Of a DNA stretch of 42,297 nt, positions 16,462 through 30,398 are shown piece after piece. The stretch is taken from positions 1-42,297 of the forward strand of contig CAMBQP010000021.1 of NCBI GenBank assembly GCA_945869955.1, given 5' to 3'. The notes beneath the pieces were generated by a model. That model ran no database searches. It was not told the DNA's origin and was given only the letters and a program-made list of their open reading frames with translations. The stretch's first letter is position 1. Every line of letters begins with the position of its first letter. The DNA is from Schlesneria paludicola DSM 18645 (GTDB lineage Bacteria > Planctomycetota > Planctomycetia > Planctomycetales > Planctomycetaceae). The position numbers and the translations under genes are program-made.

Positions 16462-16503
16462 TTTTTCAGTGGGATCATTTTTCAGTGGGATCATTTTTCA
16501 GCG
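16462..16503. repeat. 16-bp tandem repeat, about 2.6 copies
   Basis: The unit TTTTTCAGTGGGATCA occurs perfectly at 16462-16477 and 16478-16493, followed by a partial copy (TTTTTCAG) that runs to just before the DUF1501 stop. It lies in the gap between the DUF1501 and M14 genes. It may be replication slippage only. Read on the minus strand it gives A-runs rather than T-runs, so it is not a rho-independent terminator for the DUF1501 gene. Confidence 0.85.
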
Positions 16504-18482: not shown

Positions 18483-18746
18483 ATGATTCAAGCTTTTATC
18501 GCTCATCACGCTCTTCTGGCGAACATCCCCTTGGAATCTTCCGGGCTGTGGCATGCCCTGATCGGCACCGCCTCGTTCGGCCTGCTGGGGTTGGTGCTCA
18601 TGCTGGTAGGATTCAAGGCGTTCGAGTTCATTACGCTGCGACTCGATATCGAGAAGCAACTGGAAGAACGAAATATGGCGGTCGGAATCGTGGTGGCAGC
18701 GCTCTTACTGGGCCTGAGTCTGATTGTGGTTGTCTCAATTCTCTGA
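18483..18746 (+). CDS. DUF350 family membrane protein (YjfL-like)
   Basis: This 87-residue inner-membrane protein is of the DUF350 (PF03994) type. It has two hydrophobic helices, about residues 22-50 (FGLLGLVLMLVGFKAFEF) and 65-87 (NMAVGIVVAALLLGLSLIVV), joined by the charged segment RLDIEKQLEERN that is typical of the family. E. coli YjfL is longer, with two such modules; this copy is one module. It opens a plus-strand operon with a Gly-rich lipoprotein and a YjfC/YgiC-type ATP-grasp ligase, the same order as E. coli yjfL-yjfM-yjfC. The molecular role of DUF350 is unknown. The last 72 nt of the gene are duplicated immediately downstream. Confidence 0.9.
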   Translation: MIQAFIAHHALLANIPLESSGLWHALIGTASFGLLGLVLMLVGFKAFEFITLRLDIEKQLEERNMAVGIVVAALLLGLSLIVVVSIL

Positions 18747-18944
18747 GTGAATCCCTTTTTTGATGAAGCCTTCGTCATGAAACTCAGTTCCCAAGTCGCA
18801 TTAACGCTGATGACGGTCGGATTCGTGGTGGTAGCGCTTTTGCTGGCATGGGGTATCATGGTGGTTGCCTCAAATCTCTAAGTGAATCCCTTTTTCGATG
18901 AAGTCTTCGTCATGAAACGTAGTTCCCAAGTCGCATTAACGCTG
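18675..18944 (+). repeat. 135-bp in-frame tandem duplication spanning DUF350 end and lipoprotein start
   Basis: Copy 1 is 18675-18809 and copy 2 is 18810-18944, with an exact 135-nt period and no indels. Each copy contains the last 24 codons of a DUF350-like frame, a 30-nt spacer beginning GTGAATCCCTTTTT, and the first 11 codons of the lipoprotein (MKxSSQVALTL). The spacer plus start segment differs at 4 of 63 positions; the DUF350 part differs at 16 of 72. By my count about 85% of positions match overall. The stops at 18744 and 18879 and the ATGs at 18777 and 18912 keep the period exactly. Confidence 0.95.
18777..18881 (+). CDS. Chimeric 34-residue single-helix membrane ORF
   Basis: This ORF arose by the 135-bp duplication. 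Residues 1-11 (MKLSSQVALTL) copy the start of the downstream lipoprotein, while residues 12-34 (MTVGFVVVALLLAWG and on) copy the second transmembrane helix of the upstream DUF350 protein. The result is a lysine-positive N-terminus followed by one hydrophobic helix, ending SNL and TAA. The frame also stays open upstream to a GTG at 18747. No strong Shine-Dalgarno is visible. It may be a translated microprotein, a neutral duplication by-product, or a leader that affects the next gene. No family assignment is possible. It lies 30 nt after DUF350 and 30 nt before the lipoprotein ATG. Confidence 0.5.
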   Translation: MKLSSQVALTLMTVGFVVVALLLAWGIMVVASNL

Positions 18945-19427
18945 CTGGTCCCTTCCATGGCCGCGTTTGGTTGCTCAGAACAGCGGGCGCCCACTCCCAT
19001 GGGGATCGGTTCTGCTGTCGGTGGTGCCGGTGTTTCTCAGCTCAGTGATTCCGAGTACCTCGTTTCCGAGGATCTCGATGAATCGGGAAATCCGATCCCG
19101 TCGAGTTCCACTGACAGTTCCACGCAAACTGCTGCGACACAAAACACCCCACATTATCGCGGGCGTAGTTCGTTCATCCCGTACATTCCGTATTTCGGCG
19201 GCGGCGGCCGGGGTTGGGGAGGCGGATACCGGCCTTCAGCCCCATCCCCTCCGATGGCGCGTCCAATGGGGTCGAACTCGTCCGCACCTCGTCCGATCGG
19301 CACGCAATCTGGCGGTTCTACGGGAACTGTTCATAGCGGTTCGACCGGCACGGTCCATGGCGGTTCGACCGGAACGGTCCATGGCGGATTCGGCGGGACC
19401 GGATCCCATTTGTCCGGAGGGAGCTGA
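18912..19427 (+). CDS. Gly/Ser-rich lipoprotein, YjfM/YgiB (DUF1190)-like by position and composition
   Basis: This is a 171-residue protein. The signal MKRSSQVALTLLVPSMAAFG ends at a lipobox with the first Cys at residue 21, so it is a lipoprotein. After an acidic Ser/Asp-rich part it has RSSFIPYIPYFGGGGRGWGG (ending about residue 105), a Pro/Ser stretch, and three tandem 8-residue repeats GSTGTVHG/S (residues 135-158), then GGFGGTGSHLSGGS at the C-terminus. Its position between DUF350 and the ATP-grasp gene, and the Gly-rich tail, match YjfM/YgiB of E. coli, but I see no clean alignment, so the DUF1190 link is inference. Its stop overlaps the ligase start by one base (TGATG). It may be the acceptor of the ligase reaction. 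Confidence 0.8.
   Translation: MKRSSQVALTLLVPSMAAFGCSEQRAPTPMGIGSAVGGAGVSQLSDSEYLVSEDLDESGNPIPSSSTDSSTQTAATQNTPHYRGRSSFIPYIPYFGGGGRGWGGGYRPSAPSPPMARPMGSNSSAPRPIGTQSGGSTGTVHSGSTGTVHGGSTGTVHGGFGGTGSHLSGGS
19314..19385 (+). repeat. Three 24-bp coding repeats (GSTGTVHG/S)
   Basis: Three consecutive 24-nt units encode Gly-Ser-Thr-Gly-Thr-Val-His-Ser/Gly near the C-terminus of the lipoprotein. Copies 2 and 3 are nearly identical at DNA level (GGC against GGA at one Gly codon), while copy 1 uses different synonymous codons. This suggests copy 3 arose recently and the peptide is conserved. Each unit has one His and several hydroxyl residues. Confidence 0.9.
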
Positions 19428-20551
19428 TGCGGCGAATCCTTGCGGAACCCCGCCCCCAGTGGCGTCAGGATGTGGAAGAATTGGGATTCACTTACCATAC
19501 CATTGATGGCGAGCCTTATTGGGACGAGGCGGGCTGGTACGAATTCTCAATGTCCGAGATCGAAGAACTCGAATTGGCCACCAACAATCTGCACGAGATG
19601 TGCCTCAAAGCGGTGCAAGTCGTCATCGACGATGACCGGTTCGATGAGTTTCAGATTCCCCCGGCATTTCGGGACTGGATTCGCACCAGCTGGGATCATG
19701 ACGAACCAACCCTCTACGGGCGGTTTGACCTGGCTTGGGATGGTCGATCCGCTCCTAAAATGCTCGAATACAACGCGGACACACCGACCGGATTATTCGA
19801 GGCTGCGGTCGTCCAGTGGAATTGGCTGGAAGCGGTTCATCCCCGTTGCGACCAGTTCAACAGCATTCATGAGCGCTTGATCGCCCGATGGGCGGACTGG
19901 ATGCAGGACGACGAGACGCGTATCAGCTTTGCTGCCACGGACGGTCATGAAGAAGATTTTGGCAACGTAACCTACCTGCGGGACACTGCGACGCAAGCCG
20001 GAATCACGACCGAATACCTCCCCATGTCTGCGATTGGCTTCGACCCGCGCCACAATTCGTTCGTCAATGCAGAAAACATTCCGATCGATTGCTTGTTCAA
20101 ACTCTATCCCTGGGAATGGATGTTGCAGGAATCGTTCGCGCCGCGATTATTAACCGCCAGCACACGCTGGATCGAGCCCCCCTGGAAAATGTTGCTGTCC
20201 AATAAGGCGTTGCTGGTGGTGCTGTGGGAGATGTTCCCACACAGCGATTACCTGTTACCGACATCCTGGCAACCCCTGTCCGGCGACTACGTCCGCAAAC
20301 CGATTCTCGCGCGGGAGGGGAGCAATATTCAGGTGGTCCAGCGCGGGCGCACCGTCCGTGAAACCGATGGCCCCTACGCCAATCAGCCCGCCATTTATCA
20401 GAAATATCATCCCCTGCTGCAATCCGGGGAAAGTTTTGCGGTGCTGGGGAGTTGGATTGTGGGTGACACAGCATGTGGACTCGGGATTCGCGAAGACCTG
20501 AATCCCATCACCCATGACCTGAGTCGGTTTATCCCCCATCTGATCCGCTAG
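19427..20551 (+). CDS. ATP-grasp ligase, glutathionylspermidine-synthase-like (YjfC/YgiC type)
   Basis: This 374-residue protein matches the stand-alone ATP-grasp enzymes related to the synthetase half of GspS (PF03738); E. coli YjfC/YgiC are of similar length. Visible segments are GEPYWDEAGWYEFS, LYGRFDLAWDG, MLEYNADTPTGLFEA (nucleotide/acceptor binding), LFKLYPWEWM, LLSNKALLVVLWEMFPHS, YVRKPILAREGSNIQVV and AVLGSWIVGDTACGLGIRED. The family forms amide bonds using ATP; YjfC-like enzymes lack the GspA amidase domain, and their substrates are unknown. The start overlaps the lipoprotein stop by one base, with GGAGGG just ahead. Its direct partner is therefore most likely the lipoprotein or a polyamine/peptide linked to it. 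Confidence 0.92.
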   Translation: MRRILAEPRPQWRQDVEELGFTYHTIDGEPYWDEAGWYEFSMSEIEELELATNNLHEMCLKAVQVVIDDDRFDEFQIPPAFRDWIRTSWDHDEPTLYGRFDLAWDGRSAPKMLEYNADTPTGLFEAAVVQWNWLEAVHPRCDQFNSIHERLIARWADWMQDDETRISFAATDGHEEDFGNVTYLRDTATQAGITTEYLPMSAIGFDPRHNSFVNAENIPIDCLFKLYPWEWMLQESFAPRLLTASTRWIEPPWKMLLSNKALLVVLWEMFPHSDYLLPTSWQPLSGDYVRKPILAREGSNIQVVQRGRTVRETDGPYANQPAIYQKYHPLLQSGESFAVLGSWIVGDTACGLGIREDLNPITHDLSRFIPHLIR

Positions 20552-29021: not shown

Positions 29022-30398
29022 ATGCGAATTGCCTATTTAGACTGTGCATCGGGTATCAGTGGCGACATGACTGTCGCCGCATTGATTGATGCAGGGCTCG
29101 ATTTCGAAGTGGTGAAGGCGGGGATCGCATCGCTGAATCTGCCTGGAGTGACGCTGCATCTGACTGAGGTGGATCGCGGAGGTTTTCGTGCGAAACATTT
29201 CCGTGTTGAGCACCCCGAGCAACATGCACATCGACATCTGAGTGACATTCGACAGATTATTAACCGATCCGAAGGATTGAACGATAATCAGCGCGATCTG
29301 GCTTTGCGGATCTTTCACGCGGTGGCGGAGGCCGAAGCCAAGGTTCATGGTTCGACCGTCGATCAAGTTCATTTTCATGAAGTCGGAGCGATTGATTCGA
29401 TTGTGGACATCGTCGCTGCGGCCATTGGATTTGATCTGCTGGATGTCGAGGAACTGTATTGCAGTCGAATTCCGACAGGTCGCGGAAGCGTCAAAATCGC
29501 CCACGGAATCTGTTCCATTCCAACTCCTGGAACCGCAGAGCTGTTAAAAGGGATCCCCCTGGCAAATGTCGCCGTCGACGCCGAACTGACCACCCCCACC
29601 GGGGCGGCCATCGTGAAAACGCTGGTCAGTACCTTTGTGGATTCGCTCCCCGAAATTACCATCGAAAAGATTGGTTACGGAGCCGGAACACGTGAACTGG
29701 ACGGACGCGCGAATATGTTGCGTCTGATTATTGGTGAAACGGCGGGGGTTGAAGCGTCTGAGGATACAGTCATCCTGCTGGAAACAAACCTCGATGATGT
29801 CACCGGCGAAGTGCTGGGGTATACGAAACGGGCGCTATTGGCTGCCGGTGCTCTGGATGTCTATACGACACCGATTCAGATGAAGAAAGATCGTCCCGGT
29901 ATCATCCTGAGCGTGATCAGTTCCCTGGAAGACGTGGGAAAACTGGAATCGATCCTGTTTCGAGAAACGCAAACATTCGGAATTCGCCGGCAGCGGTTGC
30001 AACGCTCGCTGCGTGAACGGATGGAATATTCGGTCGATACCGATTTCGGTCCGGTCAAGGGAAAAGTGGGCTGGCGTGACGAAGAGCCGGCGATTTTTAC
30101 GCCGGAATACGATCACTGTGTCTCCATCGCAAAAGCACACGAAGTCCCGCTACGTGATGTCTACCTCGCCGCGCTCTTTGCGTTCCATGCGGAAGATGAA
30201 GACGACGAAGAAGAAGGTGACCACGATCATGACCACGATCATGACCACGATCATGACCACGACCACGACCACGACCACGACCATGACCACGACCACGACC
30301 ACGACCATGACCACGACCATGACCATGACCACGACCATGACCATGACCATGGGCACGATCATGATCATGACTGTACCCAAGACCACGACCATGGTTAA
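29022..30398 (+). CDS. larC: LarC nickel chelatase with Asp-His tail
   Basis: This 458-residue protein inserts nickel, using CTP, into pyridinium-3,5-bisthiocarboxylate mononucleotide to make the nickel-pincer cofactor of lactate racemase and relatives. The LarC core is clear: RIAYLDCASGISGDMTVAAL, VHGSTVDQVHFHEVGAIDSI, CSRIPTGRGSVKIAHG, TTPTGAAIVKTL, LLETNLDDVTGEVLGY and GIRRQRLQRSLRERM. In some species larC1 and larC2 are separate frames joined by programmed frameshift; here the frame is continuous. Residues 400-443 are 22 consecutive Asp-His pairs, followed by GHDHDHDCTQDHDHG, giving about 27 His in the last 60 residues. The ATG at 29022 follows GGAAAA. No larA, larB or larE is nearby. Confidence 0.94.
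   Translation: MRIAYLDCASGISGDMTVAALIDAGLDFEVVKAGIASLNLPGVTLHLTEVDRGGFRAKHFRVEHPEQHAHRHLSDIRQIINRSEGLNDNQRDLALRIFHAVAEAEAKVHGSTVDQVHFHEVGAIDSIVDIVAAAIGFDLLDVEELYCSRIPTGRGSVKIAHGICSIPTPGTAELLKGIPLANVAVDAELTTPTGAAIVKTLVSTFVDSLPEITIEKIGYGAGTRELDGRANMLRLIIGETAGVEASEDTVILLETNLDDVTGEVLGYTKRALLAAGALDVYTTPIQMKKDRPGIILSVISSLEDVGKLESILFRETQTFGIRRQRLQRSLRERMEYSVDTDFGPVKGKVGWRDEEPAIFTPEYDHCVSIAKAHEVPLRDVYLAALFAFHAEDEDDEEEGDHDHDHDHDHDHDHDHDHDHDHDHDHDHDHDHDHDHDHDHDHDHGHDHDHDCTQDHDHG
30219..30350 (+). repeat. Imperfect hexanucleotide repeat encoding 22 Asp-His pairs
   Basis: This is 132 nt of GAC/GAT alternating with CAC/CAT. The first six pairs alternate GACCAC and GATCAT; the later ones are mostly GACCAC and GACCAT. 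Codon choice shifts along the tract but every unit keeps Asp-His, so peptide sequence is conserved over DNA sequence. Length change by slippage in steps of 6 nt would stay in frame. Confidence 0.95.

Follow-up and report, generated by a model that had tools for sequence, protein, structure and literature searches.

A 135-bp tandem duplication and a chimeric reading frame between DUF350 and lipoprotein-like genes in Schlesneria paludicola

The DUF350, lipoprotein and ATP-grasp locus

The window, by which we mean the whole 42,297-nt stretch that was analysed (contig CAMBQP010000021.1 of Schlesneria paludicola DSM 18645), carries a DUF350 gene, a lipoprotein-like gene and a glutathionylspermidine-synthase-like ATP-grasp ligase gene in succession, and a 135-nt tandem repeat lies across the boundary of the first two (Table 1). 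Escherichia coli yjfLMC is an example of a neighbourhood of DUF350/YjfL, a lipoprotein and a GspS-like ATP-grasp protein, and the host operon, with its DUF350 (PF03994), lipoprotein and PF03738 genes, resembles it. The first-pass annotation had spoken of an operon of unknown function, but the neighbourhood type is a known one: YjfL/DUF350, a lipoprotein and a GspS-like (glutathionylspermidine-synthetase-like) ATP-grasp protein occur together among the PspA-related neighbourhoods described in PMC11237479. Unlike in that known neighbourhood, the lipoprotein here had no DUF1190 or other Pfam match, nor any NCBIfam match, and the chimeric frame described below is no part of it. The named matches of the ATP-grasp protein assign the window to Schlesneria or its vicinity (Planctomycetota).

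Table 1. Features at the repeat and in the adjoining genes (positions within the window)
Feature	Positions	Strand	Description
DUF350 (YjfL-like) membrane protein gene	18483-18746	+	87 aa; PF03994 match over 18483-18743, E 6.7e-12, 46 bits against a cut-off of 26
Repeat copy 1	18675-18809	+	DUF350 3' end (ancestral-like helix), 30-nt spacer, 33 nt of lipoprotein start
Chimeric frame	18777-18881	+	34 codons, ATG at 18777, TAA at 18879-18881; lipoprotein residues 1-11 and 23 codons of DUF350 tail; product MKLSSQVALTLMTVGFVVVALLLAWGIMVVASNL
Repeat copy 2	18810-18944	+	diverged DUF350 3' end (chimera tail), spacer, genuine lipoprotein start
Difference cluster	18847-18860	+	in copy 2; 8 of 16 helix-part differences in 14 nt; clustering P=0.036
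Lipoprotein-like gene	18912-19427	+	171 aa; starts MKRSSQVALTLLVPSMAAFGC; conserved C-terminal GGFGGTGSHLSGGS
Glutathionylspermidine-synthase-like ATP-grasp ligase (YjfC-like) gene	19427-20551	+	374 aa; PF03738, E 1.6e-149

The lipoprotein has the same N- and C-termini in congeners, and across its orthologues (L003-L009 and L028-L033) the strikingly conserved ends (MKRSxxVALTLLVPAMAAFGC and GGFGxxGxxxSGGS) enclose a variable, low-complexity middle. The conserved tail could be a candidate substrate or recognition tag of the adjoining peptide-ligase-like ATP-grasp protein. Further along the same gene, an in-frame 24-nt repeat (GGSTGTVH) was found at 19310-19392 in 3.4 copies. Elsewhere in the window we observed a perfect 16-nt repeat of 2.5 copies (TTTTTCAGTGGGATCA) between two minus-strand genes at 16462-16501, and a long hexamer array (TGACCA/GACCAC) of about 29 units at 30218-30393. 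The congener G009 carries a second GspS-like ATP-grasp match (L015, G009:C63:12057-12866; residues 105-374) that is nearer to the window's protein than is the copy in its own trio (74% versus 56% identity), possibly through contamination or transfer.

The tandem repeat and its junction frame

A repeat finder and TRF independently reported two head-to-tail, ungapped copies with a 135-nt period (TRF score 405). The self-BLAST E-value of the repeat was 5e-38, and it is therefore not a chance similarity; it was present once in the 6.25-Mb genome, with no further copy found. Copies 1 and 2 are 85% identical, and a recount of their 20 differences exactly reproduced the figures of the first-pass annotation, with 16/72 nt differing in the helix part and 4/63 nt in the spacer/start part. 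The same annotation held that there was no indel, which agrees with the ungapped alignment as a whole, but the segment 18847-18860 aligns about equally well with two compensating 1-nt indels, and TRF gave an indel figure of 1%. No Rfam match was found in the repeat, and promoter and terminator scans of it gave only chance-level results.

The DUF350 gene's final 23 codons and stop fall in copy 1, whose last 33 nt form the beginning of the chimera. The copies are thus adjacent, both parent genes remain intact, and the fusion lies at the copy junction. The prior chance of an in-frame outcome was about one third. The stop changed from TGA in DUF350 to TAA in the chimera with its position kept, and the stop-to-start distance is 30 nt on both sides of the chimera. 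By sequence inspection, no obvious Shine-Dalgarno-like motif precedes either the chimera or the lipoprotein start, and local folding at the two starts differs modestly (-12.9 versus -8.0 kcal/mol). A bacterial lipoprotein has a signal peptide ending in a lipobox cysteine, whereas the chimera carries only signal residues 1-11 and lacks the second half of the signal and its cysteine. The PF03994 profile, which matched the intact neighbour, found no match in the chimera (18777-18878). One leader codon is altered: the chimera reads K-L where the genuine lipoprotein start in copy 2 reads K-R, as in all close congeners, so that the arginine conserved there is lost. In the tail, 10/23 residues are altered, including I to N, S to G and L to W; these amino-acid changes sit in copy 2, while copy 1 retains the residues common with congeners. 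A literature search found nothing on such a chimera.

Relatives, age and divergence of the copies

To the proposal that relatives be searched for the same arrangement, whose absence had been named as evidence against a gene under selection, the answer was consistent: neither duplication nor chimera was present in the trios of seven congeners (G001, G002, G004, G005, G006, G009 and G010), all of which have a DUF350 orthologue, and the duplication was likewise absent from the trios of L028-L033 and L115. The conservation across relatives expected of a small-protein gene was accordingly not seen, either in these congeners or in more distant relatives. In congeners, DUF350 is followed by a plain spacer and then the lipoprotein, with no duplicated tail or start; in the closest five this spacer measures from over 60 to about 220 nt, and the spacer sequence of this genome is unlike that of its congeners. 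In a DNA search of 170 genomes of the family, the window alone matched both copies. The possibility that other trios had undergone duplications of their own was also considered: self-BLAST of 93 locus entries (the window and 92 others, including some duplicates in which the same genome appears twice) found a comparable repeat between DUF350 and the lipoprotein or ATP-grasp gene in the window only, at a detection limit beyond which repeats diverged by more than roughly 25-30% would escape. Taken alone, absence from relatives would indicate only that the event is recent. The copies differ from each other by a dS of about 0.22 and a dN of 0.27, while copy 1 differs from congener DUF350 tails by a dS of about 1.5 to saturated and a dN of 0.12-0.17, which places the duplication after the sampled splits and agrees with its absence from relatives. 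By these comparisons, the duplication is real, relatively recent and confined to a single lineage.

The uneven divergence of the two parts had been offered as a hint of selection. The counts hold; their significance does not, since Fisher's p rises from 0.014 to 0.23 once the 14-nt cluster is dropped. The cluster may have arisen in one or two events that each changed several nucleotides, or through a pair of compensating 1-nt indels. A patch copied into the copy-2 tail from elsewhere was rejected, as the tail had no other full-length match in the genome and the clustered segment had no second copy within the window. The copy-1 spacer/start part has at most 4/63 changes, where the rate of the tail would predict about 13. 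The shortfall may stem from gene conversion between the copies, from constraint acting on a start that is in use, or from a tail rate inflated by the cluster.

With the chimera found in no relative, dN/dS was estimated from the two copies and outgroup DUF350 tails instead. The tail carries 11 nonsynonymous and 4 synonymous changes, with 10.0-10.5 nonsynonymous changes expected by chance. In a branch codon model of seven sequences and 23 codons, run on a fixed topology whose deep branches are saturated, omega on the copy-2 branch did not differ from 1 (p=0.76) and differed strongly from the DUF350 background (likelihood-ratio test, 2dlnL 21.8), where omega is 0.03-0.04 (0.03 in the codon model). 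The likelihood profile rejected omega values of 0.2 (2dlnL 7.9) and 0.3 (4.6) and allowed 0.5, 2 and 5. The purifying selection expected of a small-protein gene, with omega well below 1, was thus not seen in the 23-codon tail, where omega is about 1 and values of 0.3 or less are excluded. With a short sequence from one genome, either weak selection (omega about 0.5) or positive selection may have acted; the free estimate of omega ended at the upper limit of its range, which does not demonstrate the latter. The stop-free, hydrophobic helix, which the first-pass annotation read as a sign of selection, turned out to be expected by chance: after 15 random substitutions the tail stayed stop-free in 73-85% of simulations, and 25-36% of these stop-free tails had a GRAVY at least as high as observed. 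Retained hydropathy is expected because the starting codons are strongly hydrophobic. A tail free of charged residues and proline was less common (P 0.08-0.10). Of the earlier picture of a gene born from its two neighbours, then, the in-frame fusion of neighbour ends stands, selection is not supported, and the birth of a gene here is unproven.

Origin and status of the chimeric frame

A bacterial tandem duplication that begins in one gene and ends in the next leaves both intact and fuses the downstream gene's 5' end to the upstream gene's 3' end. The frame described here resembles such junction ORFs in its head-to-tail fusion between intact parents; unlike junction ORFs in general, it arose from a small (135 bp) event, is old enough for 15% divergence, and bears no sign of retention for its product. 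We consider it likely that a recent duplication in a single lineage left a junction frame that may be translated, with a product that shows no sign of selection. One 135-bp tandem duplication, which began within DUF350 and ended within the lipoprotein gene, followed the split from the sampled Schlesneria species, sparing both genes and creating the junction frame between them. Because it inherits the lipoprotein start codon and its 30-nt upstream spacer, the chimera probably undergoes some translation wherever the lipoprotein does. Its predicted product is a short single-helix peptide, with one lysine followed by a hydrophobic stretch and no lipobox, whose tail has changed at a rate close to neutral, as far as 23 codons can show. 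Because the 30-nt stop-to-start distance was kept and DUF350 and the lipoprotein were unchanged, the duplication was probably tolerated.

The data are explained without any selected function of the peptide, and the fused frame is more probably a chance by-product of the duplication than a newly born gene. Against a neutral reading stand the tail's lack of any new charged residue or proline and the little-changed copy-1 start, which could reflect a region either maintained or homogenised by gene conversion. This start is the main reason that readings based on coupling or on a young gene stay alive: the frame may be a young or weakly selected microprotein, or may be kept open because it preserves translational coupling. 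In the latter case, the target of selection would be the open frame and start region, not the peptide: after finishing DUF350, ribosomes would translate the chimera and re-initiate at the lipoprotein 30 nt past its stop, and the lipoprotein would become uncoupled if the frame acquired a premature stop or a frameshift. We think this unlikely. The identical spacing on both sides, the better conservation of the spacer/start part and the held position of a stop that itself changed all fit, as does an omega of about 1 in an open frame, which coupling predicts. However, the much longer spacers of congeners indicate that close coupling is not conserved, chance alone would be expected to leave the frame open, and neither start has a visible Shine-Dalgarno-like motif.

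The first-pass annotation favoured a membrane microprotein that may be under selection; if functional, such a peptide might modulate DUF350 by mimicking its last helix. An open hydrophobic frame with an uncharged tail, a real inherited start region and an omega profile that permits positive selection are consistent with this, but DUF350-like constraint was rejected, the tail and leader changes include the loss of the conserved arginine, and no relative has the frame; we regard the proposal as improbable. It is quite doubtful, too, that this is a very young chimeric gene whose translated product, a single-helix peptide combining the lipoprotein signal start with a DUF350 helix, is on its way to a role at the DUF350 complex, the start region being maintained while the helix evolves fast under neutrality or positive selection. 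An assembly artefact, in which the assembly of this genome from a metagenome placed two strain alleles head to tail, is very improbable. The genome is fragmented (394 contigs, 94.8% complete) and the junction is known from this one genome, yet DUF350 alleles should differ mainly synonymously given the low omega among congeners, unlike the mostly nonsynonymous changes between the copies, and copies that differ by as much as 15% are unlikely to stem from a collapse or expansion error.

Sequence tests do not tell this chimeric frame from neutral DNA. As found, the locus neatly illustrates how a small tandem duplication that stays in frame gives rise to a plausible-looking frame for a membrane microprotein. 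Were this frame translated and selected, it would offer a rare dated case (dS about 0.22) of a bacterial microprotein assembled from two adjacent genes whose ancestral arrangement can still be seen in congeners.
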